Below are positions 10,320 to 35,375 of a stretch of DNA of 37,555 nucleotides, piece after piece; position 1 is the stretch's first letter, and every line of letters starts with the position of its first letter. Location: positions 1 through 37,555 of the forward strand of contig JADCES010000285.1 of NCBI GenBank assembly GCA_020250005.1, written 5' to 3'. Below the pieces are notes generated by a model, which saw nothing but the letters and a program-made list of their open reading frames with translations, searched no databases and was not told the origin of the DNA. This stretch comes from Roseomonas sp. (GTDB taxonomy: Bacteria; Pseudomonadota; Alphaproteobacteria; Acetobacterales; Acetobacteraceae). The translations under genes and the position numbers were made by a program.

Positions 10320-10615
10320 CCGCTGCAGTGGATTGCCGCGCCGGCACGCTGCGCGATCATTGTCCTGCGTTGAACCTTGTTCTTGAGCTTAATCTGAAAT
10401 TCATCCGGCGATAGCGGTGCGGCTGTTGCGCCGATTTGGCTGAAGAATTCCTGGTACGGCGGATCGCGAAAGCCTACTTCTAACCGCCATCGGCACCGCT
10501 TCTTGGCGAAATTCTTCGGTCCCGCCTTTGCCTATGGTTCATCTCCTTCGCGGCGTAACAAGTGAACGAAGGGGCGGTACAAAACCGTGACAGCTCCGGA
10601 CTGGCTACAAAACTC

Positions 10616-10644
10616 TTGCGATCCAGCCTGCAATCCCCTATTGT
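10616..10644 (+). promoter_or_regulatory. Candidate sigma-70-like promoter of the orphan Mo-hydroxylase gene
   Basis: TTGCGA (10616-10621) is followed by a 17-base spacer and TATTGT (10639-10644), 4 of 6 bases matching TATAAT. The putative operator begins immediately after the -10 element, so a bound repressor would cover the transcription start. Prediction from pattern only. Confidence 0.35.
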
Positions 10645-10661
10645 TTATCGATAGATAAGTT
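10645..10661 (+). promoter_or_regulatory. Candidate operator, copy 1 (TTATCGATAGATAAGTT)
   Basis: A dyad TTATC-GATA-GATAA with a GTT extension sits 48 bases upstream of the orphan Mo-subunit start. It is 14/17 identical to a site at 20042-20058 upstream of the second hydroxylase operon, next to the TetR gene. Two such matches at the same distance from functionally related genes suggest a shared regulator, most simply the TetR protein. Confidence 0.45.
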
Positions 10662-10709
10662 ACTTCTGCCCTCAAAAGGCGAGGCCAAAAGTCACCGGGA
10701 GATCAAGCA

Positions 10710-13073
10710 ATGGACCAAGGTATCGCATCCGCTTCGGCACGCTTCGGCATAGGCCAGGCAGTCCGCCGGCGAGAGGATGACAGGCTGCTGCGCGGCAAAG
10801 GGCATTTCGCTGGCGATGTCACGCTTCCGAACCAGCTTTACGCCTATCTGCTGCGCTCGCCACATCCGCATGCCCGTGTCATTTCCATAAATATTGCACG
10901 GGCGGCAGCGGCACCAGGGGTGCACGCGATTCTTACCGGTGACGATGCGGCGGCTGATGGCCTTGGCTGTCCCCCAGGGCTTTCAGGTGCGGCGCCGCCG
11001 GCCTATCCAAAAAATCGCGATGGCAGCGAATTCATCGAGGTGCCCTATCTGCCGCTTGCCCGCGCGCGTGCCATGTATGTTGGCCATGAGGTAGCGCTCA
11101 TTATCGCCGATAGCCTGCAACAAGCCCGTGATGCGGCGGAACTCATCGCCATAGAGTGGGAAATCCTGCCCCATGTCACCGAGGCCGCCGATGCGCTTGC
11201 ACCGGGCGCACCAGCGCTACAGGAGCATGTGCCCGGAAACCGTGTGCTTGACTGGAGTTTTGGCGATTCAGCAGCGGTACAGGCGGCTTTTGATGCGGCA
11301 GCGCATGTTGCGCGCCTCACGGTCGAACAGACCCGCATCACTCAAGGCTTCATGGAACCGCGCGCTGCCGTCGCGGATTATGATGACGCAACGGGTCGCT
11401 GGACTCTCCATACCTGTACCCAGGCGGCGAATCGCGCAAAGGAATATCTCGCCGATCATGTCTTCAAGGTGGATCGTGAACGCTTCAGGGTTCTCTCCGC
11501 CGATGTGGGCGGTGGCTTCGGTGGCAAGATCCACCTCTATAATGAATATGCGCTGGTCTGTTGGGCGGCGCGGCGACTTGGCCGGCCCGTCAAATGGGTC
11601 TCGGACCGCACCGAAGGGTTTCTCTCGGATTGGATGACGCGCGATCAGCGCTGTTCGGGCGAATTGGCGCTCGATTCGGAAGGGCGCATTCTTGCGCTGC
11701 GCATTCGCCAAATCGCCAATACGGGTGCTTTTGTCACGCCTCTCGCCATCATTCCGCCGACCTGGAATTTTCTGCGTTCGACTCAAGTGCTTTATCGTAC
11801 GCAGCTTTGTCACGCGGAAGTTCAAGTGGCCATCACCAATACCTGCCCAGTCAATATCTATCGTGGTGCTGGGCGGCCAGAGGGCACCTATATCGTCGAA
11901 AGACTGCTCGACCAGGCAGCAGCGGAAATGGGGATGGATCGCGCTGAAATCCGACGGCGCAACCTCATCCCCGATGATGCGCTACCCTTCAAGACCTTCA
12001 TCGGCCTCAATTACGATAGCGGACGCTTTGCGGATGGCCAGGCCATGGCGCTGCGCCTGGCGGATTGGGATGGCTTTGCGGCACGCCGCGCCGCCGATGC
12101 CAAAGCAGGCAGGCTGCGCGGCATTGGCATTTCCAATTATGTCGAGGTTGCCGGCGGAATGCCGCGCGAATTTGCCGAAATGCGCATCAAGGGCAGCACC
12201 AATCGCGTTGAAGTCATGGCTGGTTCCGGCCCCATGGGCCAGGGATGCGAAACAGCCTATGCGCAGCTTGCCGTGGCACTTCTTGGTGTGGAACCCGGCT
12301 GTGTTGATGTCATTATGGGCGATACCGATCGCGTAAAGTGGGGCGATGGGTCCTATGCCACAAGATCAATGCGGGTTGCGGGTACGGCCATTCATCTTGC
12401 CGGCACAAAGGTGATTGAGATCGGCAAACAGGCTGCCGCTCATCTGCTGGAGGCCGCGGCGACCGATATCGCCTTTGAGGAAGGCCGTTTCTTCATCGGC
12501 GGAACAGACCGAGGGATCAGCCTGTTTGAGGTGGCGCGCGCGATTGAGACTGGAAAACTCCCGACCGAGCTTGGCAATGCGCTTGGTGCAGAGATTGATC
12601 ACGTAGCCGATGGGCCATCCTTCCCGAATGGTTGCCATGTGTGTGAGGTTTCGATCTGCACCGAAACAGGCGTGGTGCGGATAGAAAACTATGTGGCGGT
12701 GGATGATGTGGGCCGTGTGATCAATCCGATGATCGTACATGGGCAGATCCATGGTGGGATTGCACAAGGCATTGGCCAAACCTTGCTTGAACAGATTGTG
12801 CATGATGCTGCCACTGGCCAGATCCTGACCGCGAGCTTCATGGATTACACCATGCCGCGCGCCGATGATTTGCCCAATCTTGTCACGGCAATGAATGAAG
12901 TACCCAGCCCGAAGAACCCGCTTGGCGTGAAGGGCGCCGGTGAAGGCGGCATCACGGGTGCCCTTGCTGCGGTGGTCGGCGCTGTTTCAGATGCGGTATC
13001 GGTTCATGGCGTGCGGCATATTGATATGCCGGTGACGCCGGAAAAGGTATTGCGCGCCATTGGTAAATTGTGA
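10710..13073 (+). CDS. Xanthine dehydrogenase-family Mo-cofactor (large) subunit, orphan
   Basis: Molybdopterin-cytosine-dinucleotide-type hydroxylase subunit of 787 aa, which would hydroxylate a substrate carbon using water. Visible are VRRREDDRLLRGKGHFAGD at the N-terminus, QGFMEPRAAVADYD near 212, GGGFGGK near 265 and YRGAGRPEGTY near 385. The GAGEGG loop with the catalytic glutamate lies near 743. The YRGAGR loop is the aldehyde-oxidase/form-II type, not the CSFR loop of true CO dehydrogenase. No FAD or [2Fe-2S] subunit lies beside it, so it must borrow electron-transfer partners, perhaps those at 18651-20001. A GGGAGA ribosome site lies 7 bases before the ATG. Its substrate is unknown. 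Confidence 0.93.
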   Translation: MDQGIASASARFGIGQAVRRREDDRLLRGKGHFAGDVTLPNQLYAYLLRSPHPHARVISINIARAAAAPGVHAILTGDDAAADGLGCPPGLSGAAPPAYPKNRDGSEFIEVPYLPLARARAMYVGHEVALIIADSLQQARDAAELIAIEWEILPHVTEAADALAPGAPALQEHVPGNRVLDWSFGDSAAVQAAFDAAAHVARLTVEQTRITQGFMEPRAAVADYDDATGRWTLHTCTQAANRAKEYLADHVFKVDRERFRVLSADVGGGFGGKIHLYNEYALVCWAARRLGRPVKWVSDRTEGFLSDWMTRDQRCSGELALDSEGRILALRIRQIANTGAFVTPLAIIPPTWNFLRSTQVLYRTQLCHAEVQVAITNTCPVNIYRGAGRPEGTYIVERLLDQAAAEMGMDRAEIRRRNLIPDDALPFKTFIGLNYDSGRFADGQAMALRLADWDGFAARRAADAKAGRLRGIGISNYVEVAGGMPREFAEMRIKGSTNRVEVMAGSGPMGQGCETAYAQLAVALLGVEPGCVDVIMGDTDRVKWGDGSYATRSMRVAGTAIHLAGTKVIEIGKQAAAHLLEAAATDIAFEEGRFFIGGTDRGISLFEVARAIETGKLPTELGNALGAEIDHVADGPSFPNGCHVCEVSICTETGVVRIENYVAVDDVGRVINPMIVHGQIHGGIAQGIGQTLLEQIVHDAATGQILTASFMDYTMPRADDLPNLVTAMNEVPSPKNPLGVKGAGEGGITGALAAVVGAVSDAVSVHGVRHIDMPVTPEKVLRAIGKL

Positions 13074-13161
13074 GCGGTCATTCGTAAGGGCAACGGGATG
13101 CGCAATCATCGGGTGTGAAGCGCTTCTGCGAGCTGATGCTGAACCGTCTTGAAGCTGCGGA

Positions 13162-13190
13162 GGGTGTGATCCCAGGAAGGGATCACACCC
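13162..13190 (+). terminator. Strong rho-independent terminator between convergent genes
   Basis: GGGTGTGATCCC - AGGAA - GGGATCACACCC is a perfect 12-bp stem with a 5-base loop, followed by CTTTT on the plus strand. It ends the orphan Mo-subunit transcript 88 bases after its stop. It also sits just downstream of the minus-strand DctP stop, so the hairpin could serve both directions, though only the plus side has a T-run. Confidence 0.85.
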
Positions 13191-13197
13191 CTTTTGG

Positions 13198-14292
13198 TCA
13201 AGCGATCGGATAGGTAATGGGCAGGCGGAAGTTACTGGCTTCCAGCCGTTCCATGTAAGTACGCAAAATCTGGCTGCCGGGCATGCCGCGCCGATCCGCT
13301 TCACGCGCCTGTTCCAACGGCAAACCCGAGAGCGCTTGCGCCCAGGCAAGACGCGTTTCGTCACTCATGTAGCTCACGGTAGTGTTAGGGAAAGTACGCC
13401 ACTGGTCCACCGCCGTTGCATAAAGGCGGTCATTTTCCTCAGCGGTCTTGATCTGCCATTCACTGGCGACTTCCTGGAGCGTATCCTGGACAGGACGGGG
13501 CAGGCTCCGCCAGCGGTCGCTATTGACCGTGATATGCGCTGACCCGGAAGCACCGAAACGCGTGACATGCAAATGGGGATTCACCTCATAGAGACGAATT
13601 GCAATCATGCCGGCGGTCACGGTCATCACGCCGTCCACAACACCCGACTGGGCCGAGGTGAAGAAATCTGCAAGGCTGCCTTGTACGCCAACGATACCGC
13701 CAGGCCGCAGGAAGTTCAGCAGAGCGCCAGCGCCCGCGATGCGACGTCCGCGCAGATCTTCCAAGCGGTTCCACGGTGTGCGGGTGGCAAGATCAACGCT
13801 TGGCGCTCCCGAAACAGCGATCATCCGCTGGCCAAACCGCTGTTCAAAGACATTGCGCAGAAAGGGCACACGCTCATACACCTCATGCGTCACCTTGATC
13901 TGAAGCGCGTTATTGTCAGGGGCGAAGGGTACCCAGGGATGCCAATTATGGGAGAATAGCCGCGCTGCCTCAAAGGTCGCGAGGAATAGGCCAACATCAA
14001 CAACGCCGTTTTGTACTGCTTCCAGCGTCTCATTCACCCGCGTGACCGCGCCGCCCCAGCTTACGGTAAAGGTCACGGGGTGTCCGCGTTCCCGTGACCG
14101 ACGAACAACTTCCGGAATAAAAAAGCTATCTGCGACACCAACATAAGCGAGTGCGGCAGTAGTATGGCCTGACGCGATGCGCAGATTAGTGGCGCGCGCC
14201 TGAGCGCTTGCCTTGGTGCCGATCAGCGCAACGGAAAGCCCCGCCGCGCCGCCTGCCAGCGCGCGACGCCGGCTGATGGAAGTGGTGGTCAT
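13198..14292 (-). CDS. dctP: TRAP transporter substrate-binding protein (DctP family)
   Basis: Periplasmic receptor of 364 aa for a TRAP importer. The N-terminus is a twin-arginine signal (SISRRRALAGGAAGLSVAL) with likely cleavage after ASA. The mature part shows the DctP pattern, including LEAVQNGVVDVG and, later, FTSAQSGVVDGVMT, the repeat that marks ligand-binding-site architecture. A GGGAGG ribosome site lies 8 bases before the ATG. It is the last gene of the operon, 42 bases after DctM, and ends at the shared hairpin. Position in the molybdenum-hydroxylase operon suggests it captures that enzyme's substrate. TRAP receptors usually bind carboxylates, so a carboxylated (hetero)aromatic ligand is plausible but not shown. 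Confidence 0.9.
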   Translation of the reverse strand: MTTTSISRRRALAGGAAGLSVALIGTKASAQARATNLRIASGHTTAALAYVGVADSFFIPEVVRRSRERGHPVTFTVSWGGAVTRVNETLEAVQNGVVDVGLFLATFEAARLFSHNWHPWVPFAPDNNALQIKVTHEVYERVPFLRNVFEQRFGQRMIAVSGAPSVDLATRTPWNRLEDLRGRRIAGAGALLNFLRPGGIVGVQGSLADFFTSAQSGVVDGVMTVTAGMIAIRLYEVNPHLHVTRFGASGSAHITVNSDRWRSLPRPVQDTLQEVASEWQIKTAEENDRLYATAVDQWRTFPNTTVSYMSDETRLAWAQALSGLPLEQAREADRRGMPGSQILRTYMERLEASNFRLPITYPIA

Positions 14293-14334
14293 GATTTATT
14301 CCTCCCTTGATGGTTTGCCAAAACTCTAGCCCTT

Positions 14335-15693
14335 TCACATCAGGTTGCGTGGAATCCAGGTGGCGATCTGCGGGAAATTCCACACCAGAAAGGCAGTCAC
14401 CAGGATCAACCCGACATAAGGTAGACTTCCCTTGACGATTATCGAAATGCTGACACCTTGCCCGGGCAGGGCGCTTTTCACCGAGAAAAGAAGCATCCCG
14501 AAAGGCGGTGTCAGCAGACCGCATTCGATCACCAATATGCCTACAATCGCGAAGGCGATAGGATCAAAGCCAAGCATATTCGCAACCGGCCAGAAGATCG
14601 GCACCGTCAGCAGCATGATCGAAACACTGTCAATGATCATGCCAAGCAAAAGCCAGATCACAACCATGATCAGCATGACTTCCAGCGGGCCAAGATCAAG
14701 GCCAGTCACTAGGCCTTGAACAGCAGCCGTCATCCCGCCCATGGAAAGCATGCGCGAATACATCTGCGCGGCAATCAACAGCACCAGCAAAGGCGCTGTG
14801 ATTTTGGCGGTATCGTAGAAAACGCCGAATATCTGCTTGACCGTCATGCCCTTCAGCAGCGCCAGCAGCAATGCACCCAAGGCGCCAATCGCAGCCGCTT
14901 CTGTGGGCGTGAAGAGTCCCCCCCAAATCCCGCCAAGCACAAGCATCATCAAGACACCAATGCCACCCGCACCAAGCCATTCCTTGGGCGACATCGGAAG
15001 CTGCGCATTGGACCTGGCGCGTTCGACGAAAGCCGGTGTTGCGGCGGCCGGCATTGCGGGCGCCGTATCCGGCGCCAGCGAAGGGTTACGCTTCACCGAA
15101 ATGATGATGTAGAGGCAGAGAAGCGTGGTCAGCAGCAGGCCAGGCCCGATGCCGGCCAGAAAGAGCTGCCCGATGGATTGTTCCGCCAGAATGCCCCAGA
15201 CGATCATCAAGACGCTGGGCGGAATAAGCATGCCGAGTACGGCGCTTCCGGCGATGGCGCCCACGGCAAACTGCTGCTGATAGCCGGCATTGCGCATGGC
15301 TGGATAGGCAAAACGGCTGAACGCCGCCGCGGCCGCAACCGAAACCCCTGTGACGGTCGCGAAAATGGCATTGCCGATGACGGTCGCCACGGCAAGCCGC
15401 CCAGGGATACGACGCAGCCCCCGATTGACCGCCTTGAACATGTCTTCAGCCGCGCCGCAGCGACCCACAAGATCACCCATCAGAATGAAAAGAGGGATCA
15501 CCGCAAAGATATAATCTCGCAGGAACTGAAACGCTGTTGACTGCAACATGCGTACCGGCACCATTGGATTGCCGGTGATGAGCATCACGCCCGCCATGCT
15601 GGCTGCGATCAGACAAAGCGCGATGTGCACACCAAGCGAGACCAGGATGATCAGCAGGCCGACCATCAGCGTGGCGATTTCGATCCCGGTCAT
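14335..15693 (-). CDS. dctM: TRAP transporter large permease (DctM family)
   Basis: Large membrane subunit of the TRAP importer, 452 aa with about 12 hydrophobic segments; it carries the sodium-driven elevator-type transport domain. The ORF track begins at 15966, but that extension overlaps DctQ in another frame and lacks DctM character. The ATG at 15693 has GGAGG 6 bases upstream and gives the standard start (MTGIEIATLMVGLLIILVSL). Typical stretches include RDYIFAVIPLFILMGDL and the GMLIPPSVLMIVWGILAEQS region. It begins 25 bases after the DctQ stop and is followed 42 bases later by DctP. Confidence 0.92.
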   Translation of the reverse strand: MTGIEIATLMVGLLIILVSLGVHIALCLIAASMAGVMLITGNPMVPVRMLQSTAFQFLRDYIFAVIPLFILMGDLVGRCGAAEDMFKAVNRGLRRIPGRLAVATVIGNAIFATVTGVSVAAAAAFSRFAYPAMRNAGYQQQFAVGAIAGSAVLGMLIPPSVLMIVWGILAEQSIGQLFLAGIGPGLLLTTLLCLYIIISVKRNPSLAPDTAPAMPAAATPAFVERARSNAQLPMSPKEWLGAGGIGVLMMLVLGGIWGGLFTPTEAAAIGALGALLLALLKGMTVKQIFGVFYDTAKITAPLLVLLIAAQMYSRMLSMGGMTAAVQGLVTGLDLGPLEVMLIMVVIWLLLGMIIDSVSIMLLTVPIFWPVANMLGFDPIAFAIVGILVIECGLLTPPFGMLLFSVKSALPGQGVSISIIVKGSLPYVGLILVTAFLVWNFPQIATWIPRNLM

Positions 15694-15718
15694 GATTTTT
15701 CCTCCGTCTGATACCGGG

Positions 15719-16267
15719 TCATTCCACGGCCGCCGAACTGTCCTTGGGCGCGCCCTTGCGCCAGGCATTGATGAGCATGGCGAAATAAGCAATGGCCGCG
15801 AGGCCCGACATGGCCACAAGTACGATACGGACCGGCCAGACGGGTACGCGGAAGGCGCCTTCGCCCTCATAGGCGCCGATCTCAATCGCCTCCAGCATGG
15901 GCCGCCAGCCGCCATAGGCAATGGAAGCACAAATGAAAATGCCGAGAATGCAGGTACAGGTTTCAATCGCTAATCTACCGGTATCATTTGCCGCATCATA
16001 GATGACGGTCGCGCGGATCATCCCATTGCCGAGGACGGCAAAGGGCAGTTGCAGGAAAACAAGCGCGACAAGCGTATTGGCCACCATCTCAGCCGTGCCC
16101 GGGACTGGCTTATTGAAAAGCCCACGCGATACAACATCCGCGCAGACAAGCAGCGCTATGGCGAAAAGGCCAAATACGGAGATCAGGTGAAACATCCTGG
16201 CAAAGCGTTCAAGACCGCCATGGGCGATCTCTGCAACGCCTGTGGCTTCGGTCTTTCCTGCGGCCAT
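15719..16267 (-). CDS. dctQ: TRAP transporter small permease (DctQ family)
   Basis: Small integral membrane subunit of the TRAP importer, 182 aa with four predicted hydrophobic segments, as expected for DctQ. Segments are seen near residues 25-48 (LISVFGLFAIALLVCADVV), 60-80, 95-115 and 135-155. An AAGGA ribosome site precedes the ATG. It starts 17 bases after the stop of the Mo large subunit, so transporter and enzyme genes form one transcript. DctQ and DctM pair to form the translocation unit, with DctP as receptor. The assignment rests on size, topology and placement before DctM, because DctQ sequences diverge strongly. Confidence 0.88.
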   Translation of the reverse strand: MAAGKTEATGVAEIAHGGLERFARMFHLISVFGLFAIALLVCADVVSRGLFNKPVPGTAEMVANTLVALVFLQLPFAVLGNGMIRATVIYDAANDTGRLAIETCTCILGIFICASIAYGGWRPMLEAIEIGAYEGEGAFRVPVWPVRIVLVAMSGLAAIAYFAMLINAWRKGAPKDSSAAVE

Positions 16268-16284
16268 GGAACTTTCCTTCCCTG

Positions 16285-18654
16285 TCAGGCCTTGCCAAGG
16301 GCGCGCAAGATGCGCTCTGGCGTGAAAGGCATTTCCGTGATTTCAACGCGAAACGGCGATAGCGCATCGTTCAGCGCGTTCATGATGGCAGCCGGCGCAC
16401 CGGCTGTTCCGGCTTCGCCCGCACCCTTCGCCCCGATCGCTGATTCCCGCGTCAGTGTTTCAACATGCGCGACATCCATATCCGGCATTTCAGCGGCCAT
16501 TGGCACCAGGTAGTCAACCATGCTGCCATTCAGCATCTGGCCATTGCTGTCATAAAGGCATTCTTCGAAAAGCGTAGGCCCGATGCCCTGCACAATGGCG
16601 CCGCGCATCTGTTCTTCTACCAGCAAAGGATTGAGCACCTTGCCGCAATCTTCCACTGCCCAGAACTTCAAAAGCTTGATGAAGCCCGTTTCCGGATCCG
16701 CTTCCAAATGGCAGGCAAGAATGCCATTGGTGAAGGCAAAGGCATATTGCGTCGGAAGATAATGCCTGGTGACCGATAATTCGGGCCGCATGCCGCCCAA
16801 GGTATCCGGGCGGAAATAGGCAATGCGGCCAACCTCCGAAAGGCTTGTGATTTCCTGTCCGCTTTCGGCATCCACAACAAGCCCGCGGCGGATATCAAGG
16901 GATGCGGCGTCACGCTGATGGATGGTGGCAGCAAGATCAAGGATGGATTTTCGCAAGGCGCGTCCTGCCTGCCAGGCGGCCTCACCACCCACGCCAGCAC
17001 CGCGGCTCGCCCAGGTTCCCCCGCCATAAGGCGTGGCGTCCGTATCACCGGTTACCAGACGCACGGCGCCCATAGGTACCCCAACCGCATCGGCAACGAT
17101 TTGCGCGAAGATCGTCTCGGTTCCCTGGCCCTGTTCACCACACCCATGCAGCACCATGATGCCGCCTTGCGGTTCCAACCGCACGGTGCAACCATCCTGC
17201 GCCGAAATGCGCGCCCCGCCGACACCATAGAACATGGCCGAAGGATTGGTGATTTCGATCATCGAAGCAAGGCCAATGCCGCGATAGATGCCGCGCTTGC
17301 GTGCTTCCACCTGATCGGCGCGCAGTTTTTCATAATCCATCATGCTGAGCACCTTATCGAGGCACGCATGATGCGACATGCCTTCGAATTTCATGCCCGA
17401 TGGTGTCTGTAACGGAAAATCCTCGTCGCGGAGGAGGTTCTTCCGGCGTATCTCAGCCGGGTCCATGCCAATCTCGCGCGCGGCGGCATCCACCAGCGCT
17501 TCCGTGACGCCCACCGCGACCGGATGCCCAACGGCACGATAATTGGAATAGGGTGCCAGATTCGTGAACAGGGCGCGCACCTTTGCCCGATAGGCCTGCA
17601 GCCGATACCATTGCCCGCAAATATTGGCGATCTGATTGCCTTCAACGACACTCGTGCGCGGATAGACGGAATAAGGGCCGATCGCCTGCGTCCCCTCATA
17701 ACCCAAGGCGAGGATCGTACCATCGCGCTTGAGCGCGAGCCGGGCGGTCACGGCGTGGTCGCGGTTGTGGATATCGGACAGAAAACTCTCCAACCGATCC
17801 GCGACGAATTTAACAGGGCGCCCGATCCGCATGGAAAGTGCGCAGATTGCCAGCTCATCACCATAAACATGCGTCTTGATGCCATAGCTGCCGCCCACAT
17901 CCGGGCACACCACGCGCACGTCAGATTCCGCAATTCCCAAAAGCCGCGCATAACAATCCTGGATCATATGCGGCGCCTGATGGGAAATATAAACCGTCAG
18001 GCGCCGGTCAGATGGATTCCAATCACCGATGATCGAGCGCCCTTCAGGACAGACGCCGGTATGGCGTGGAAAACGAAAGCGCCTTTCCACGAATACATCG
18101 GCCTCGGCCGCTGCCTTGTCCCAGTCACCGCCTTCCACTTCGCGTGTGAAGCAGATGTTGTCGTCAAGCTCCGGCTGCGCGCGTATCTCGCCGCGTTCCG
18201 CAACATCCAGCGAACTGACCGCAGGTAGGGGGTCATATTCCGCATCAATGCGCGCAGCCGCATCTTCGGCCAGACGACGCGTTTCGGCGATGATGGCAAC
18301 AACAGGCTCGCCTTGCCAGGCAACACGATCAATGGCGATGCAATGTTGCATGGCTGATTTCATGCCTTTGAAATGGACAAGAAGGCCCGCAAAGGGTTGC
18401 ACCGCGTCGGCAAGATCGCGGCCCGTGACGATATCGATCACACCGGGCATGGTGCGCGCGGCAGATGCATGAATGGCCAGGATGCGCGCATGGGCATGCG
18501 GGCTGCGCAGAAACGCCACATGGGCCATCCGCGCCAAAACGATGTCATCCACATAGCGCCCGCGGCCTTCAAGCAGCCGACGGCCATTCGGGCGCGCGAC
18601 TGAAGCGCCGATCATGGGCGCTTCGGGGCTGGTTTGCGGCGTGATCTTGTTCAT
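16285..18654 (-). CDS. Xanthine dehydrogenase-family Mo-cofactor (large) subunit
   Basis: Catalytic molybdenum subunit of 789 aa in a three-subunit hydroxylase (FAD-FeS-Mo gene order, as in coxMSL). Motifs seen are GRRLLEGRGRYVDDI near 25, GGSYGIKTHVYGDE near 255 and KGAGEAG with the catalytic glutamate near 744. The Mo-contact loop reads NYRAVGHPVAVG near 371 instead of the usual YRGAGRPE, so this is neither form I nor form II CO dehydrogenase in the strict sense, and its substrate pocket is unusual. It overlaps the [2Fe-2S] gene by ATGA and precedes the TRAP genes by 17 bases. Nicotinate-, purine- or aldehyde-type substrates are all possible. Confidence 0.92.
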   Translation of the reverse strand: MNKITPQTSPEAPMIGASVARPNGRRLLEGRGRYVDDIVLARMAHVAFLRSPHAHARILAIHASAARTMPGVIDIVTGRDLADAVQPFAGLLVHFKGMKSAMQHCIAIDRVAWQGEPVVAIIAETRRLAEDAAARIDAEYDPLPAVSSLDVAERGEIRAQPELDDNICFTREVEGGDWDKAAAEADVFVERRFRFPRHTGVCPEGRSIIGDWNPSDRRLTVYISHQAPHMIQDCYARLLGIAESDVRVVCPDVGGSYGIKTHVYGDELAICALSMRIGRPVKFVADRLESFLSDIHNRDHAVTARLALKRDGTILALGYEGTQAIGPYSVYPRTSVVEGNQIANICGQWYRLQAYRAKVRALFTNLAPYSNYRAVGHPVAVGVTEALVDAAAREIGMDPAEIRRKNLLRDEDFPLQTPSGMKFEGMSHHACLDKVLSMMDYEKLRADQVEARKRGIYRGIGLASMIEITNPSAMFYGVGGARISAQDGCTVRLEPQGGIMVLHGCGEQGQGTETIFAQIVADAVGVPMGAVRLVTGDTDATPYGGGTWASRGAGVGGEAAWQAGRALRKSILDLAATIHQRDAASLDIRRGLVVDAESGQEITSLSEVGRIAYFRPDTLGGMRPELSVTRHYLPTQYAFAFTNGILACHLEADPETGFIKLLKFWAVEDCGKVLNPLLVEEQMRGAIVQGIGPTLFEECLYDSNGQMLNGSMVDYLVPMAAEMPDMDVAHVETLTRESAIGAKGAGEAGTAGAPAAIMNALNDALSPFRVEITEMPFTPERILRALGKA

Positions 18655-19145
18655 GGTGAGGGCCTTGCCATCAAGCGCTTGGCCTGAGTTGCTTCAACAG
18701 CATCCACAATTGCCTGATAGCCGGTGCAGCGGCAGTAATTGCCCGAAAGCTGTTCCCGAATGGCCTGGCGATCCATCGGCGCCGGTACGTCAAGGATCTC
18801 CGCTGCGGTGATCAGCATGCCGGCAGTGCACCAGCCGCATTGCATGGCGTTCCGCGCGTGAAACTCCGCCTGCAAATCCGCGATTTCGCCAGTCGCCGTC
18901 AGCCCTTCTATGGTCCAGACATCGGCGCCTTCCAATTGTGGTGCCAGCAACAGGCAACCACGCACGATTTCATTATCTACACGGAGCGTACAGGCCCCGC
19001 ATACCCCATGCTCACAGGCAACACGTGGCCCGGAAAGGCCGAAGATCTCCCGCAGCATATCCACCGCATGCAAACGGGCGGGAACACGGCGCCGTACGGC
19101 CTGGCCATTGAGCCGGAAGGCGATTTCCATTTCCTCATCTTCCAT
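18651..19145 (-). CDS. (2Fe-2S)-binding small subunit of molybdenum hydroxylase
   Basis: Electron-transfer subunit with two [2Fe-2S] clusters, passing electrons from the Mo site to FAD. The N-terminal plant-type ferredoxin domain has C44, C49, C52 and C64 (CEHGVCGAC...GC). The second cluster uses CGWCTAG and NYCRCTGY. The track start (19187) is too long: the ATG at 19145 has a strong GAGGAG ribosome site and gives 164 aa, the family norm. An alternative ATG at 19163 overlaps the FAD gene and has no clear ribosome site. It follows the FAD subunit by 10 bases and overlaps the large subunit (ATGA), so the three are made together. Confidence 0.93.
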   Translation of the reverse strand: MEDEEMEIAFRLNGQAVRRRVPARLHAVDMLREIFGLSGPRVACEHGVCGACTLRVDNEIVRGCLLLAPQLEGADVWTIEGLTATGEIADLQAEFHARNAMQCGWCTAGMLITAAEILDVPAPMDRQAIREQLSGNYCRCTGYQAIVDAVEATQAKRLMARPSP

Positions 19146-19155
19146 GCTGCTCTCC

Positions 19156-20001
19156 TCAGCCATGGCTGCGCAATTGATTGATGGCACGCTGCAAAAGCAC
19201 GCCGGCGAGGTATTTTTTCGTTGCCGATGAATGGCAAGGATCCGAGGGCGGATCGAGCTTCTGCTTCAATTCCGCGATCGCCGGCGCCATTTCGCCAGCC
19301 ATGAGTAGCTTCTCAACCGTGGGGAAGCGCAGCGGCCGATCCGCAACACCAAAAAAGGCCAGACGCAAGCCGCTGAGCTTGCCATCAAGGCATGTGCCCA
19401 CAATGCCCACAATCGCAAAATCACCGTGACGCCTGGCAAGTTCCAGCGCAACGCTGCGCGCCCCCGGCTTTTGGATCGGCAGCTCTACACGCAACAAAAG
19501 ATCATCTGGACCAAGCGCTGTTGCGTAAAGACCGCGGAAGAAATCCGCCGCCGCTATGCGCCTTTCGCCGGTGATCTGTGGCCCGGTAAAAATCATCTCA
19601 GCGTCAAGGGCGAGGCAGCAGGCAGGCCATTCTGCGGCGGGATCCGCCAAGGCGATGCTACCGCCAAAAGTGCCACGATTGCGAATGGCGGCATGGGCCA
19701 CATAGGGCAGGGCGCGCAATAAAAGCGGCGCATGCGCGGCAATAAGCGGGTCATTGGACAGTTGCGCATGACGGGTCAGCGCGCCGATCACGAGCCGCCC
19801 ATCGGCAAGCAAAACGCCAGAAAGGTCGCGCAAGCCTGCAATATCGATCAGGGCGCGCGGTTCAAGGAGGCGTAGATTGAGAGCGGGCACCAAACTCTGC
19901 CCGCCAGCGATGAAGCGCGCATCTTCCCCGTAATCGGCCTTGAGCGCCACGGCATCGGCGACGCTTTTTGCACGCAAAAAACGGAACGAAGCCGCCTTCA
20001 T
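19156..20001 (-). CDS. FAD-binding (medium) subunit of molybdenum hydroxylase
   Basis: CoxM/CutM-type subunit of 281 aa that binds FAD and hands electrons from the [2Fe-2S] clusters to the final acceptor. The two FAD signatures are FIAGGQSLVPALNLRL near residue 31 and IRNRGTFGGSIALADPAAEWP near 106. The C-terminal CO_deh_flav_C-like region is present. The ATG has an AGGGGGA ribosome site 6 bases upstream. It is the first gene of the hydroxylase-TRAP operon; the 97 bases before it carry the candidate promoter and operator, and the TetR gene ends just beyond. Confidence 0.92.
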   Translation of the reverse strand: MKAASFRFLRAKSVADAVALKADYGEDARFIAGGQSLVPALNLRLLEPRALIDIAGLRDLSGVLLADGRLVIGALTRHAQLSNDPLIAAHAPLLLRALPYVAHAAIRNRGTFGGSIALADPAAEWPACCLALDAEMIFTGPQITGERRIAAADFFRGLYATALGPDDLLLRVELPIQKPGARSVALELARRHGDFAIVGIVGTCLDGKLSGLRLAFFGVADRPLRFPTVEKLLMAGEMAPAIAELKQKLDPPSDPCHSSATKKYLAGVLLQRAINQLRSHG

Positions 20002-20041
20002 GCAATTCCCCCTGCCTGGGCTTTTTTCTGAAAGCCCTTAA

Positions 20042-20058
20042 TTATCGCTTGATTAGTT
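20042..20058 (-). promoter_or_regulatory. Candidate operator, copy 2 (TTATCGCTTGATTAGTT on plus strand)
   Basis: Dyad TTATC-GCTT-GATTA with a GTT extension, 40 bases upstream of the FAD-subunit start and 40 bases past the TetR stop. It is 14/17 identical to the site at 10645-10661. It overlaps the expected -10 position of the promoter, as a repressor site would. Confidence 0.45.
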
Positions 20059-20078
20059 TTAACTCAGCCGAATGTCAA
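20050..20078 (-). promoter_or_regulatory. Candidate promoter of the hydroxylase-TRAP operon
   Basis: On the minus strand a consensus TTGACA (20078-20073) is followed by 17 bases and TAATCA (20055-20050). The -35 is perfect, the -10 weak (2 of 6), as often seen for regulated promoters. The operator candidate covers the -10. Confidence 0.4.
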
Positions 20079-20098: not shown

Positions 20099-20845
20099 TC
20101 AGGATTCTTGCGGGACTGGCGCCTTGGGCGCTGGCATGGCCGCGCGGCTGCGGCGTTTCGCCTGTTGTTGGCCCGGGGCTTTGACCCGTGCGGCCGGGCC
20201 AAGTAGCCGCTCAAGGACGCCGCTGCTGGCGGTGAAAAGATCATCCATCATCAATTCGATGGCGTCCTCAAAGGTGGCGCGATCGGGCATTGCGTAAACG
20301 TAACGTCGAAGATTCCAGTAGAAAAGCCGTCCATGGAGGTGCCAAATATATTCCAGTTCCAAGGGCGTGATCGCGTCGGTCGTAGTGGCGGGGTAACCCG
20401 CTGCGACACGCAATTCAACACAAACAGGCCGGAAGATCTTCGTCTCAAGGCGATCCAGGGTTCGGCGATTGTAATCGACGCCATCCAATCCGGCGTAGAC
20501 GAACATGCGTACCCATTCGCGGGAGAAAATTGTTTCCTGAAACTCATGATAAAACTGCGTGAGTCGTGCACGCAGTGATTGTTTTCGGTCAACCACAAGC
20601 GCTTCCCAATCGGCGCGCCAACGCATCAGGAACAATTCTTCATAGACTTTTTCGATAAGCGCCTGCTTTGATGGAAAATATTGGTAGAGAAGGGGCTGCG
20701 TAATGGAAAGTTGGCGCGCCAATTCACGCGTTTGTCCATTGAATCCGTGTTCGGAGAAAAAGCGAATGGCGCCTTCAAGTATCTGGCGTTCACGCTCCTC
20801 GCGCTTTAAACGTGGCATTCCTCTGGCCCAATCTTTATGGCGCAT
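20099..20845 (-). CDS. TetR/AcrR-family transcriptional regulator
   Basis: One-domain DNA-binding plus ligand-binding regulator of up to 248 aa. The N-terminal HTH spans about residues 18-65: ILEGAIRFFSEHGFNGQ, then LARQLSITQPLLYQYFPSK and ALIEKVYEELF, the classic TetR layout. The rest is a helical effector domain with a charged, Pro/Ala/Lys-rich tail. Two starts are possible: the track ATG (MRHKDWARG) and an internal ATG at 20818 (MPRLKREERE). Neither has an ideally spaced ribosome site. It sits upstream of and in line with the hydroxylase-TRAP operon and next to operator copy 2, so it likely represses that operon and perhaps the orphan Mo gene until substrate is present. Confidence 0.9.
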   Translation of the reverse strand: MRHKDWARGMPRLKREERERQILEGAIRFFSEHGFNGQTRELARQLSITQPLLYQYFPSKQALIEKVYEELFLMRWRADWEALVVDRKQSLRARLTQFYHEFQETIFSREWVRMFVYAGLDGVDYNRRTLDRLETKIFRPVCVELRVAAGYPATTTDAITPLELEYIWHLHGRLFYWNLRRYVYAMPDRATFEDAIELMMDDLFTASSGVLERLLGPAARVKAPGQQQAKRRSRAAMPAPKAPVPQES

Positions 20846-21068: not shown

Positions 21069-21932
21069 CGTACTCCATCGCCGAAGCAGGATATCCGCGC
21101 GGCGGTTGCACCCAACATCCCGCATCATTGTTCCGATGCCTTCATGTGCGGCTGCCGTGATCTGGCGCGCAAACATGGTGTTGGTATCCATAGCCATGTT
21201 GGCGAAAGCAAGGTGCAGGCCCTTATGGGCATTCGGCGCTATGGCAAGGCGCTGGTGCAGCATATGGATGATCTTGACCTGATCGGCCCGGATTTCACGG
21301 CGGCGCATACGATTTGGCTTGATGATAATGATCTCAAGATCATGCGCGACAAGGGCGGGTCGCTTGCGCATAATCCCGACAGCAATATGCCCCCTGGGAA
21401 TTGCATGTTCCGCTTTCGTGAAACGCGCGATATGGGCGCGAATGGTGTTATCGGCACTGATGGTGCGCATTGTTCTGACAATCAGAATATGTATGAGGCA
21501 ATGCGCCACGCCTCCACGCCCTCAAAGACGCAGACCCCCAACCCGCGCCGCTGGGCGAGGCTTGAGGAAGTTTAGGACGCCACCACGCGCGGTTCCGGCC
21601 GCGCTGTAGGTTTCAAGGATATCGACGCCATCGCGCTGGGCATTTAGGCGGATAAGGTGTTTTTGGATCGCGCCTCGGTGAGCTGGAGTCCGCATCACTG
21701 GATCGTCAATCAACTGATACATAAGGATGTTGGCACGTTTGTGCGCCACGTGATGATCGGGGGGCGCTTTGTGGTGCGTGATGGCTGCATCCTGACAAAT
21801 GCCCGCGATCGCCGGGTCAATGAGGCAGAGGCAGCGTGGGAAGGGCTTGAAGCCCCGAACGCCTAGTTCCGCGACCTGTATGAAAAGCTTGAGCCCGTGG
21901 TCGCCTCCTTCTGCCCAGCCTTTGCGGCCTAG
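21069..21932 (+). pseudogene. Amidohydrolase-family pseudogene (chlorohydrolase/deaminase-like), N-terminus missing, three in-frame TAG codons
   Basis: A single frame reads as the C-terminal two thirds of a metal-dependent amidohydrolase (SsnA/TrzN/AtzA-like). Visible are HSHVGES, the metal-ligand AHTIWLDDND, SLAHNPDSNM and GTDGAHCSDNQNMYEA. After that come TTRGSGRAVGF, VNQLIHKDVGTFVRHVMIGG and LYEKLEPVVASFCPAFA. The frame is kept throughout but is broken by TAG at 21573, 21645 and 21864, with a fourth TAG at 21930. The N-terminal ~170 residues, including the HxH metal motif, are absent, so it cannot be functional as it stands. It lies just upstream of the Liv importer and may once have acted on imported cyclic amides or amines. 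Confidence 0.8.
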
Positions 21933-27622: not shown

Positions 27623-29419
27623 TTAGCCTCCGCGCGCCGCCGTTAACTGTGCCCGCGCTGCTTGCGTTGCCGGTAAATCAACCGCGAGTGTCTCGTCCTC
27701 GATCTCTCCAGTGAAAATCACGCCATAGATCGCGCGTGCTTTTTCGCGGCTTTCCCACCCTTCCAGCACATCATGCAGCACGCGGGCGGTATCGCGTGTC
27801 AGCGGATCGCCATAGCCTCCGCCTGAGCTATCGCGCCCACGCAAGGCTTGCCCCTTTTGTAGCGTGATCTGCACCACATTCGGCAAGCGTGCAGGATCGC
27901 CATTGTCGCCCACCAACCATGTGGCGCCTGGCGTTCCAGGCAGGCCACCAACAACGCCGCGCGGCGGTGCGTGTTGGCCATCGCAGGAAATTACCGCTGT
28001 CACTGGATTGCCGGTCGGCGTCAGTTCAATCTGCTGCGCCGGCGCGCCCCGGTGCCGCCCAGCACCTGCGCTATCCTGCACCAATTCAAGCGTATTTACG
28101 CGTATGGGGTGTTTCAGCTCATCCACTTCCACACTATCGCGATACATCAGGCCGGCAATGACAGGAATGGCGTAATTCACCCAGCCATCGGCAACCGGCG
28201 AAGAAGGCCCACCATTAGTGGAAAGCATCATGCGATTCACGAAAGGCGCATCCGCGCGGCGATGATCCTTGCCGGAAATTACCGCCATGCCAGCACCAAG
28301 GCCAGTACCGCCCTCACTCAGCCCATGACCATCACCAAGCTGGGCGAAGGCCGATTGCGTGATATTGACCAAGCGTTCGGATACATTGGTGGTAGCGACG
28401 GAACAGGAATGCGGGAATTTCGGCGCGGCCACGACACTTTCTTCGGCATAGGTAAAGCGCAGCCGCCGGAAACTACCGGCATTGCGCGGCAGGTCCTTGT
28501 CCAAGGCGTTGAAGATGGCGCCCACCACCGCAGATGTCGCGGCACCCAGCGATGTATTCAACCCGACATCAACGCAAGGCGGATTATCGGAAAGATCAAC
28601 ATGGATCATGGCCTCATCCGGGTCGATCTCGATCTTTACGGTCAATTCCAGCCCGCCAGGCAGAATGCCCTCCAACGGATCGGATTTGCCCTTATTCACC
28701 AGGCGCGCCTTTGGCATGCGGCGAATATTGTCAATCATGCGGCGTTCGGAATAATCAAACCAGTCGTGCATGAACCGCTTGACGGTGGGCACGCCATATT
28801 TGGCGCAGAATTCCTCAAGCCTGCGTTCCGCCACCCGGGCCGAGCCAAGCCCCGCAAGATAATCGCCATACCATTGGTCTGGCACGCGAATGCGCGCGCG
28901 GCACATGCGGACGATGTCTTCAATATTGCGGAAATCGCGCTGAATGCGCACGCCTGGAAATACCAGAGCGCCTTCGTGATAAACATCCCGCGCCAGGACG
29001 AAATAGCTGGAAGGGATGGAATTACCAATATCCGCCATGTGGCATTTGGCGACACTGGTGAAAAGATGCTCGCCTTCATAGAACACCGGCACCATGAAAG
29101 TGTGATCGGCGGGATGGGTATTGCCGCCATAGGGGTCATTATCCAGGTAAGCGTCACCGCGGCGGATATCTCCCGCGTGATAGCGCCGCATATTGGCGGT
29201 TTGGATATGGCAGCCGAAGATATGCACTGGCAGCCCTTCAGCGGGTGCCAATAATTCATCCTCCCCCGTCACGAGGCAGCAGGAGAAATCACGCGCCGAG
29301 GATATCACGGCCGAACGTGCGGCGCGCAAAAGCGTATTGGTCATTTCCCGCACAATGCCATCAAGGCGATTGGCCATGACAGAGAGCAGAACGGGATCAA
29401 GGCTTGTTGTATCAGTCAT
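27623..29419 (-). CDS. hyuB: Hydantoinase B/oxoprolinase family subunit (pair 1)
   Basis: Subunit of an ATP-dependent cyclic-amide hydrolase (hydantoinase, N-methylhydantoinase, 5-oxoprolinase or acetone-carboxylase-like), 598 aa. The track start at 29461 lies inside the partner gene; the ATG at 29419 has AAGGAG 7 bases upstream and gives MTDTTSLDPVLLSVMANRLD. Conserved signatures are LLRAARSAVISSARDFSC, DNDPYGGNTHPADHTFMVPV, AKCHMADIG and the C-terminal GGGYGDPLTRD. It starts 11 bases after hyuA-1 and forms one transcript with it. The two HyuB proteins of the window are clearly different, so they are not a recent duplication. The substrate is unknown. Confidence 0.92.
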   Translation of the reverse strand: MTDTTSLDPVLLSVMANRLDGIVREMTNTLLRAARSAVISSARDFSCCLVTGEDELLAPAEGLPVHIFGCHIQTANMRRYHAGDIRRGDAYLDNDPYGGNTHPADHTFMVPVFYEGEHLFTSVAKCHMADIGNSIPSSYFVLARDVYHEGALVFPGVRIQRDFRNIEDIVRMCRARIRVPDQWYGDYLAGLGSARVAERRLEEFCAKYGVPTVKRFMHDWFDYSERRMIDNIRRMPKARLVNKGKSDPLEGILPGGLELTVKIEIDPDEAMIHVDLSDNPPCVDVGLNTSLGAATSAVVGAIFNALDKDLPRNAGSFRRLRFTYAEESVVAAPKFPHSCSVATTNVSERLVNITQSAFAQLGDGHGLSEGGTGLGAGMAVISGKDHRRADAPFVNRMMLSTNGGPSSPVADGWVNYAIPVIAGLMYRDSVEVDELKHPIRVNTLELVQDSAGAGRHRGAPAQQIELTPTGNPVTAVISCDGQHAPPRGVVGGLPGTPGATWLVGDNGDPARLPNVVQITLQKGQALRGRDSSGGGYGDPLTRDTARVLHDVLEGWESREKARAIYGVIFTGEIEDETLAVDLPATQAARAQLTAARGG

Positions 29420-29430
29420 CCCCTTGCTCC

Positions 29431-31530
29431 TTAAGCCGCCATGGGTTGAGAGGGTACGCAATGCAGAATGTAATTCCCTGCTGCGGAGAGAGTGGCTGAA
29501 AGCCCCGGATAGACAACAATGGTTGTCGTGGGTTCTTCGATAATGGCTGGGCCGGCGATTTGCGCACCAGGCTTCAGCATCTGGCCGCGATAGACAGGTG
29601 TTTGCGCACGGCCTGTTTCAGTGAAGAAGCAAGGGCGCTTCGTATCCGCTTCTGGCCGATAGCTGCGCGCGCTAAAATCCGGTGGCGGAGGTGGTGCAAA
29701 CAATCGAATGGCGATGCGCCCCTTCCAATTGACGAATTCAACTGGGCTGCCTTCATCGCGCACCGCATAGACCCGTTCATGCGTTTGATGAAATGCCTCA
29801 GCCAAGGCCGCGACATCGGCGGCATTTTGCAGGTGTGTTTTCGGCAGGAAGGTATCCAGTTCCCATACCTGCGCACGGTAGCGCGCTTCTACCAGCCATT
29901 CCACGCGCGCTTCGGCGCCTTCTGCGCCCTTGAGGCCCTGACGGAAGCTCAGAAGTTCAGCCTCAATCTCTTCAAGCGCGCGATTGACGCCGGCCATGTC
30001 AAAGCCGCGATCATCGGTAAAGCGGCTACGCGTCGCTTCAAAGACAATGTCGCTATATTGCATGCCGCATGCCGATAGCGCTGAAGCAAGGCGGGGTAGA
30101 ATGACTGTTGCGCAACCCAATTCACGTGCGATGGGCATGATATTGAAGCCTGCGGCACCACCGCCGGCAACGACCACACTTTCCCGAGGGTTGACGCCTT
30201 CATTGACGGTGATTTCGCCAATCGCCTTGATCATCAGTTCATTAGCAATCACCATGATGGCGGCAGCGGTTTCATCCGCTGTGCGGCCAAGCTGATGCGC
30301 AAGGCGCGCCATCACGCGATGCGCCGCTTCTGGATCCAGCTTGAGCCGACCACCGTTGAAGTAATCAGGATCAATATAGCCTAGCACTAGGGCGGCATCG
30401 GTTACTGTCGGTTGATCGCCACCGCGGCCATAGCAGGCGGGACCGGGAACGGAGCCCGCGGATTGTGGGCCCACGCGCAGCAAGCCGCCGGCATCAAGCC
30501 AGGCGATGGAACCGCCGCCGGCGCCAATACTGCGTACATCCACAGTCGATGTGCCGATGATATCGCCAAGCCAGCGCTGCCCAAGCCATGAATCGCGCGT
30601 ATAGACCAGGCTACCATCGCGCACGAGGCCGACATCAAACGTCGTGCCGCCGGTATCGCAGACAATCGCATTGCCGCCGAGCTTTTCCACCGCCGCATAG
30701 GCGCGTCCCGCAACTGGCGCCATGGCGGGGCCGGATTTCAGGGTGTGAATGGGCCGCGCAATAAGTTCTTCCACTTCCTGACAGCCGCCGACCGAGGTGC
30801 TGACCAAAAGATCTCCGGCAAAACCCGCCTTGCGAAGATCTGCCGCCATTTCACGGAGGTGCTTTTGCATCAATGGCTTCAGCGATGCATCAATCGCGGT
30901 GGCCGAAGCACGGCGATATTCGCGCAGAATGGGTACAAGTTGCTGCGATAGCGTATAGGGAATCCCAGGCAGCATTTCCTCAATCAGTTTGCCAATCATC
31001 AGCTCATGCGCTGGATTGGCGATGGACCATAAAAGCGACACTGCCACCGCTTCAAACCCGCGCTGCTTAAGTGTTGTAAGAATTTGGCGTGCTTCGGCCT
31101 CATTCAATGGCTGGACCACTTCGCCTTCGGCACCGATACGCTCCGTCACCTCGAAGGAGCGGCGGCGCGGGATATAGGGATCGGGATAGTCATAGGAATA
31201 ATCATGGGGGCCGTGCTTGCCGCCTTCTTTCAGGGTCAGCGTATCCTTGAAACCCTTAGTGGTGATGAAGGCTGTCTTGGCAGTGCGTTTGGTAACCACG
31301 GCATTGGTGGCGCGCGTGGTGCCATAGATCAGCACATCAGTCGCTGCCAAAAGCCTAGCCAGTTCAATGCCTAAATCTTCGGCAACCACGCCAAGTGCGC
31401 CGGCCATACCATCAAAAATGCGCTCTGGGGTCGTCAGGGCTTTGCCGATATGCAAGCTTCCCTGGGGGTCAAGCACAACGATATCCGTGAATGTTCCGCC
31501 TGTGTCCACGGAAATCCTGTATCCAGTCAT
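29431..31530 (-). CDS. hyuA: Hydantoinase A/oxoprolinase family subunit (pair 1)
   Basis: ATP-binding partner of HyuB, 699 aa, of the actin/ASKHA-type fold that phosphorylates the amide oxygen. The start at 31530 (MTGYRISVDTGGTFTD) is preferred over the track start because of GAGGG five bases upstream. Phosphate-binding motifs are DTGGTFTDIV near residue 8 and CDTGGTTFDVGLV near 290; SIGAGGGSIAWLDAGG and PGPACYGRGG follow. The region KEGGKHGPHDYSYDYPDPYIPRR is typical of the acetophenone-carboxylase/hydantoinase branch. It reads away from the isochorismatase-type gene across a 98-base divergent promoter region. Acetone- or acetophenone-carboxylase-like activity remains an alternative to hydantoin hydrolysis. 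Confidence 0.92.
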   Translation of the reverse strand: MTGYRISVDTGGTFTDIVVLDPQGSLHIGKALTTPERIFDGMAGALGVVAEDLGIELARLLAATDVLIYGTTRATNAVVTKRTAKTAFITTKGFKDTLTLKEGGKHGPHDYSYDYPDPYIPRRRSFEVTERIGAEGEVVQPLNEAEARQILTTLKQRGFEAVAVSLLWSIANPAHELMIGKLIEEMLPGIPYTLSQQLVPILREYRRASATAIDASLKPLMQKHLREMAADLRKAGFAGDLLVSTSVGGCQEVEELIARPIHTLKSGPAMAPVAGRAYAAVEKLGGNAIVCDTGGTTFDVGLVRDGSLVYTRDSWLGQRWLGDIIGTSTVDVRSIGAGGGSIAWLDAGGLLRVGPQSAGSVPGPACYGRGGDQPTVTDAALVLGYIDPDYFNGGRLKLDPEAAHRVMARLAHQLGRTADETAAAIMVIANELMIKAIGEITVNEGVNPRESVVVAGGGAAGFNIMPIARELGCATVILPRLASALSACGMQYSDIVFEATRSRFTDDRGFDMAGVNRALEEIEAELLSFRQGLKGAEGAEARVEWLVEARYRAQVWELDTFLPKTHLQNAADVAALAEAFHQTHERVYAVRDEGSPVEFVNWKGRIAIRLFAPPPPPDFSARSYRPEADTKRPCFFTETGRAQTPVYRGQMLKPGAQIAGPAIIEEPTTTIVVYPGLSATLSAAGNYILHCVPSQPMAA

Positions 31531-31628
31531 TAAAGCCCTCATAAAGCCACGCAAAAAGAAGTCGGCAGAATTGCTTACATCTGCGCTTTAGGCAAATATC
31601 CGTCGCGGAAGATGGGAGGAATTGCGTC
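31531..31628. promoter_or_regulatory. Divergent promoter region between hyuA-1 and the isochorismatase-type gene
   Basis: These 98 bases must drive both arms of the hydantoinase cluster. A GGGAGGAATT ribosome site precedes the rightward gene. A small dyad GCAGA-N10-TCTGC at about 31565-31584 is a weak operator candidate. No clear -35/-10 pair or regulator gene was found nearby. Confidence 0.4.
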
Positions 31629-32264
31629 ATGGAAGATATCTATGCTGCGCGCGGCTATGGGGACCGTCCTGTTGGGTTTGGCGAAAAGCCAGGCGTGGTC
31701 GTTGTTGATTTTCAGCGCGGCTTTACCGACCCGGATTTCCCCATGGGCGGGGCACCGCTGGTTGAGCGCGCGCTGGAAAATACCCTGCGCGTGATGCGTG
31801 CCGCCAAGGCCGCCGGCGCGCCCGTGATAGCCTGCGCCATCGCTTTTGATGGGCCTAAGGGCGCACCGCATTGGAAGGTAGGGCCAGTCCTGGATTTGCT
31901 CGCTGGCACCAAGGCTGTTGAACTTGACCCAAGGATCGCGGCGGAAGAACCCGATGTCGTGCTGGCCAAGACCGCGCCCTCCATATTTTTCGGTACCGCT
32001 GCGGGCGCGATCCTGACACGTAATCGCGTAGATACGGTCATCGTCACGGGCTGCATCACCTCAGGCTGTGTACGCGCTAGCATCATTGATGCCTTTTCCT
32101 TGGGCTTCCGGGTACAGGTGCCGGAGGATTGCGTCGGCGATCAGGATGAAGTGGCCCATCGGCAGAATTTGAAGGATGTCGAAAGACGCTACGCGGATAT
32201 CATTGATGCTGAAGCGGCGATTGCGGGTATTCAGCGCTGGGCCCAGGCAAATAATCGCGGCTAA
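31629..32264 (+). CDS. Isochorismatase-family amidohydrolase (N-carbamoylsarcosine amidase-like)
   Basis: Cysteine hydrolase of 211 aa that cleaves amide or carbamoyl groups. The catalytic triad is visible: D27 (VVVVDFQRGF), K114 (VVLAKTAPSIFFGT) and C147 (ITSGCVRAS). The N-terminal YGDRPVGFGEKPGVVVVDFQ and the GCITSGCVRASIIDAFSLGF stretch fit the N-carbamoylsarcosine amidase / maleamate amidase branch better than true isochorismatase. A strong GGGAGG ribosome site precedes the ATG. In creatinine breakdown such an amidase removes the carbamoyl group left by ATP-dependent N-methylhydantoinase (HyuAB), and here it sits between two HyuAB pairs, which supports a related order of steps. The actual substrate is inference. 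Confidence 0.88.
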   Translation: MEDIYAARGYGDRPVGFGEKPGVVVVDFQRGFTDPDFPMGGAPLVERALENTLRVMRAAKAAGAPVIACAIAFDGPKGAPHWKVGPVLDLLAGTKAVELDPRIAAEEPDVVLAKTAPSIFFGTAAGAILTRNRVDTVIVTGCITSGCVRASIIDAFSLGFRVQVPEDCVGDQDEVAHRQNLKDVERRYADIIDAEAAIAGIQRWAQANNRG

Positions 32265-32391
32265 AGCCGTACGCTCCTTCGCGGCACGATGTTTGCTTTT
32301 CCCTCCCCGAGGCGTACTGTGATATATACGGAAAGGCACTACCCAAAGTGTCAACCGTTTCTCATTCTTGAACAAAGACCGGGAGAACAAA

Positions 32392-35366: not shown

Positions 35367-35375
35367 GGATCAGCC

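Follow-up and report, generated by a model that had tools for sequence, protein, structure and literature searches.

Two short palindromic sites in the window (the whole 37,555-nucleotide Roseomonas sp. stretch analyzed here, one of the 325 contigs of the 4.03-Mb assembly G000) are very probably operators (probability about 0.86) of the TetR-family repressor encoded beside one of them, which would open two molybdenum hydroxylase transcription units together. The predicted regulon, the orphan large-subunit gene coxL1 plus the operon coxM-coxS-coxL2-dctQMP (Table 1), is well supported on comparative grounds. A small regulon joining coxL1, the complete FAD-FeS-Mo enzyme, and the TRAP importer had been proposed in a first-pass annotation and is upheld by conservation of the sites and by the TRAP genes, which are counted into the coxM operon because they lie directly 3' of coxL2 on the same strand. 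The order is coxM-coxS-coxL2, then dctQ, dctM, and dctP, and the order of the TRAP genes is kept in genomes G018 and G374. This operator and its two-unit regulon are new, while the arrangement is of an ordinary kind, a TetR-type repressor-operator pair. Most studied TetR-family members are repressors, and TetR itself represses over 15-bp palindromes adjoining its gene (PMC3511530).

Table 1. Genes of the window with predicted promoters and operators
Feature	Coordinates	Strand	Description
coxL1	10710..13073	+	Orphan molybdopterin-binding large subunit, 787 aa; MoCoBD_1, MoCoBD_2, Ald_Xan_dh_C
TRAP importer dctQMP	13198..16267	-	Directly 3' of coxL2, same strand; DctQ, DctM, DctP domains
dctP	13198..14292	-	DctP
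dctM	14335..15966	-	DctM; longest ORF, true start probably later
dctQ	15719..16267	-	DctQ
coxL2	16285..18654	-	Molybdopterin-binding large subunit of the complete enzyme; MoCoBD_1, MoCoBD_2, Ald_Xan_dh_C
coxS	18651..19187	-	[2Fe-2S] subunit; Fer2_2, Fer2
coxM	19156..20001	-	FAD-binding subunit; FAD_binding_5, CO_deh_flav_C
tetR	20099..20845	-	TetR-family regulator, 248 aa; HTH RELARQLSITQPLLYQYFP; Pfam TetR_N, E = 1e-13
Predicted coxL1 promoter	10616..10644	+	TTGCGA-N17-TATTGT; TTGCGA aligns with TTGCGA 5' of G374 coxL1
Operator 1 (predicted)	10645..10658	.	Dyad TTATC-GATA-GATAA, perfect 5+5 arms, directly after predicted coxL1 -10
Predicted coxM promoter	20050..20078	-	TTGACA-N17-TAATCA, overlaps operator 2; G374 has TTGACG at equal spacing
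Operator 2 (predicted)	20042..20055	.	Dyad TTATC-GCTT-GATTA (TAATCAAGCGATAA in gene direction); left arm = predicted coxM -10

The sites lie within two 17-mers, TTATCGATAGATAAGTT (10645 to 10661) and TTATCGCTTGATTAGTT (20042 to 20058), both read on the + strand, and their letters and their match at 14 of 17 bases were confirmed. They had been described as a 17-bp dyad; the shared 17-mer stands, but the symmetry does not span all 17 bp, and the symmetrical unit of both sites is the 14-bp dyad T-N-ATC-N4-GAT-N-A. The distances to the start codons, given as 40 to 48 bases, are 48 nt at coxL1 (ATG at 10710) and 40 nt at coxM (ATG at 20001, minus strand), and the reported contact with the predicted -10 elements also holds, the dyad lying on the -10 at coxM and just after it at coxL1. 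Each target promoter carries a palindrome of the size of a TetR operator. The two copies are oppositely oriented with respect to transcription, which is tolerable because a palindromic operator permits both directions. As had been noted, the second copy adjoins a TetR-family gene; 43 nt separate its stop codon from the coxM-side dyad, and the gene lies directly 5' of coxM on the same strand. No strict dyad was found upstream of tetR itself in the 250-bp flanks examined, so autoregulation is not visible. A third core dyad of the window (21329 to 21342) falls within an amidohydrolase remnant that occupies positions 21076 to 21880, between tetR and branched-chain amino acid ABC transporter genes. 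The remnant is apparently broken up over several frames, matches Amidohydro_1 at 21144 to 21575 (E = 2.5e-13), and looks like a pseudogene.

On the evidence of the window alone, the 14/17 similarity is weak and could not carry an operator claim. A 14/17 partner was found somewhere in the window for 27% of random window 17-mers, and when the promoters were shuffled, at least one of the 55 pairs reached 14/17 in 79 of 150 shuffles and the coxL1-coxM pair did so in 3 of 150. The genome scan that had been suggested as a check returned the exact pattern TTATCGNTNGATNAGTT at the coxL1 and coxM sites alone in the whole 4.03-Mb assembly; as the pattern was built from these two sites, its uniqueness is mild support at most. 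The core TNATCN4GATNA has 60 copies in the genome and so cannot by itself delimit the regulon. A wide regulon was rejected, as 40 of the 50 copies that were placed lie inside coding sequence. Only one further placed copy precedes a called start by 100 bp or less; it is 50 bp before a tRNA-methyltransferase-like gene adjoining an S-adenosylmethionine-synthetase-like gene, an unrelated pathway (names from translations). By chance, about 0.15 to 0.25% of promoters would be expected to have a dyad no farther than 100 bp from the start.

Conservation in relatives, also proposed as a check, was found for both sites. Scanning the genome collection for close relatives gave a single contig, apparently the one in G034. 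Orthologs of coxL1 (87 to 99% identity) were identified in G034, G018, and G374 only, and with the window included, the dyad precedes the ATG by about 50 bp in all four available orthologs, the DNA upstream being largely unalike between the window, G374, and G034/G018. G034 and G374 have both sites; G018 has the coxL1 site, and since its contig stops within coxM, the comparison there covers the coxL1-side site alone. G034, of the same genus, has both units, with TetR 96% and coxL1 99% identical and the coxM-side site unchanged; beyond the operator, its DNA upstream of coxL1 could not be aligned to the window, and its promoter has TGATCAAGGGATAA at the orthologous position and TGATCAAGGGATAAGTTA at the same distance as in the window. 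The G018 coxL1 promoter has TGATCAAGGGATCA at the orthologous position. In G374, which belongs to another genus, the whole cluster is found in the same order (tetR 71 to 75%, coxM 72%, coxL2 88%, and coxL1 87% identical). The coxM-side 22-mer AACTAATCAAGCGATAATTAAG occurs without a single change in both G034 and G374, although the G374 promoter has otherwise diverged; the G374 coxL1 promoter has TTATCAAAAGATAA at the orthologous position and TAATTATCAAAAGATAATTA lying about 50 nt 5' of the ATG. This cross-genus footprint, with the site kept and its flanks diverged, is the main evidence that the sites may serve as operators. As a separate observation, the window and G034/G018 (L043/L047) share coxL1 at 99% identity, yet the DNA upstream of it (window positions 10500 to 10660) differs up to the operator, and the window segment adjoining the tctC gene sits on another contig in G034. 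The coxL1 promoter region was exchanged, with an operator present in both versions.

The coxL1 side needs separate weighing, as tetR is almost 10 kb from coxL1, the genome holds those 60 core dyads, and the coxL1 dyads differ from the coxM dyad in outer and spacer bases, all of which would fit a TetR protein that controls only the adjoining coxM operon, the coxL1 dyad being coincidental or the target of another regulator. This is improbable in our judgment, given that four of four coxL1 orthologs carry the dyad at an equal distance in differing upstream contexts, against the 0.15 to 0.25% expected. Moreover, only one protein of the window's TetR subfamily was matched in the G000 genome, and no second was found in the homolog search.

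The TetR protein matches the TetR_N helix-turn-helix (PF00440) with 51.3 bits against a cut-off of 24, and no named NCBIfam TetR equivalog reached its cut-off with it. Its model is all-helical (eleven helices, pLDDT 92.9), the closest PDB folds are TetR-family regulators, and the monomer model has the N-terminal DNA-binding domain and C-terminal ligand/dimer domain of this family. The expectation that the site would recur beside TetR orthologs was examined with homologs of roughly 33 to 48% identity gathered from about 800 genomes, of which 68 were compared. The strict dyad was present in the 250-bp flanks of 18 of 39 homologs with the helix-turn-helix motif TQ[AP]L versus 1 of 29 with another motif, with an expectation of about 0.7% per locus (Fisher P = 8e-5, a value that is only a guide, as the loci are related and not phylogenetically independent). 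The 18 positive loci include 11 related ones in which the homolog is divergent to another coxM-coxS operon, with TGATC-N4-GATCA after a TTGACA box; the dyad-bearing loci nevertheless span at least five different neighborhoods, and a coxMSL operon in another family (L210) also adjoins a dyad-bearing homolog. When 33 distinct regions upstream of coxM were compared, only ones adjoining the window's TetR type had the dyad. The site is conserved together with its regulator, as is characteristic of TetR-family operators. Counting against this, about half of the TQ[AP]L homologs have no strict dyad in their 250-bp flanks, including one TQ[AP]L TetR-coxM pair (L209/L228). Elsewhere in the subfamily, dyad-bearing homologs adjoin NnrS (L016/L113) and two cytochrome P460 genes (L029/L150), which suggests that some members control nitrogen-oxide-related genes. 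In another locus (L191/L226, G430 contig C17), three dyads surround one homolog, one 5' of tetR (4452, 5120, and 5170 being the three positions) and two 5' of a downstream flavin monooxygenase-like gene, making it a candidate for an autoregulated version of the switch.

A natural control is provided by a second coxM-coxS-coxL and TRAP operon on G000 contig C10 (L105, 11000 to 19500), whose coxL is 57% identical to coxL2 and next to which the TetR searches found no TetR of the window's subfamily. In the orthogroup of its coxM, the full dyad is present in 11 of 11 TetR-linked promoters (e.g., TGATCAAACGATCAACAAG) and in 0 of 11 TetR-less promoters (the window's clade, C10 included, in which those searches gave no adjacent homolog). 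The latter, as in TGATCAAAGCGCGCAAC, retain the arm close to the expected -10 and lack the other. The C10 operon was rejected as a third target, since its promoter retains one dyad arm only. These promoters also bear on the idea that the two sites are a chance similarity of AT-rich promoter regions, that is, of -10 elements with no regulator. The 14/17 match is by itself not significant in the window and the coxM-side left arm doubles as the predicted -10, as that idea would have it, but it was rejected after the comparison with G374, both arms of the coxM site being kept letter for letter across the genus boundary and the dyad recurring in four coxL1 promoters. It is largely refuted also by the TetR-less promoters, which retain one arm and not the other, and its probability is negligible.

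The sites' sequence and position, their conservation across divergence, and their association with the TetR subfamily and its helix-turn-helix are direct observations; from them we infer physical binding, repression as its sign, an inducer, and transcription through the TRAP genes. A TetR dimer would bind the 14-bp dyad and, seated on the -10 of coxM or just after that of coxL1, would bar RNA polymerase from both promoters. Once the TetR protein bound a small-molecule ligand, probably one of the pathway's substrates or products, coxL1 and the operon coxM-coxS-coxL2-dctQMP would open jointly. Some TetR-family proteins, e.g., AtrA, activate (PMC3511530), and the protein could in principle act as an activator or dual regulator at both sites; this is quite improbable, as the dyad covers the coxM -10 and the coxL1 start region, where binding should obstruct polymerase.

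The repressor arrangement favored here has a short palindrome over a core promoter by the regulator gene, as in TetR/tetO and divergent TetR-family repressors (PMC3511530). In relatives L021 to L028 and L201 to L206 the classical divergent layout is found, with the site in the common intergenic region, whereas the window's regulator gene points the same way as its target and lies upstream of it. The window also differs from TetR/tetO in a second operator, which lies about 9.4 kb off and belongs to a different transcription unit. XdhR, linked to xanthine dehydrogenase, is likewise a TetR-family protein beside molybdenum hydroxylase genes. It is listed among the TetR-family regulators obeying the 200-bp rule (PMC3511530).

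The best solved relatives of both large subunits are CoxL and quinoline 2-oxidoreductase (PDB 1t3q, 8uem, 1ffu). The window enzyme shares the L, M, and S composition of these CoxMSL-type hydroxylases, but in the NCBIfam comparison neither large subunit reached the cut-off of any named equivalog, CO dehydrogenase included. Identity as an aerobic CO dehydrogenase large subunit was rejected on the curated cut-offs, coxL1 and coxL2 scoring 480 and 463 bits against 991 for TIGR02416 and 506 and 510 against 950 for NF040766. Both proteins have near the C terminus a KGAGE motif, which we take to hold the catalytic glutamate, and from its retention CoxL1 and CoxL2 are probably both active. CoxL1 may conceivably be an alternative catalytic subunit that alternates with CoxL2 on one CoxM/CoxS pair, though this is rather doubtful, and an orphan subunit borrowing FAD and FeS subunits is speculation. 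If such alternation were true, it would be the reason for the shared operator, and one repressor would free two enzymes with different substrates and common electron-transfer subunits. Farther along the window, positions 27623 to 37142 encode two hydantoinase-type A+B pairs, an isochorismatase-family-like hydrolase, and an allantoinase PuuE-like deacetylase (three identities by NCBIfam comparison, the rest from translations), which suggests that the molybdenum enzymes sit in an island for degrading nitrogen heterocycles or amides.

A description of the operator TNATC-N4-GATNA was not found in the literature searched. The site offers a testable operator for a TetR subfamily found repeatedly next to uncharacterized molybdenum hydroxylases, both in Acetobacteraceae and in some further families of its class; a few genomes have it next to NnrS, cytochrome P460, or a flavin monooxygenase-like gene. 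By co-regulation, the orphan large subunit would be tied to one particular FAD/FeS pair and one importer, narrowing the search for its partners and substrate.
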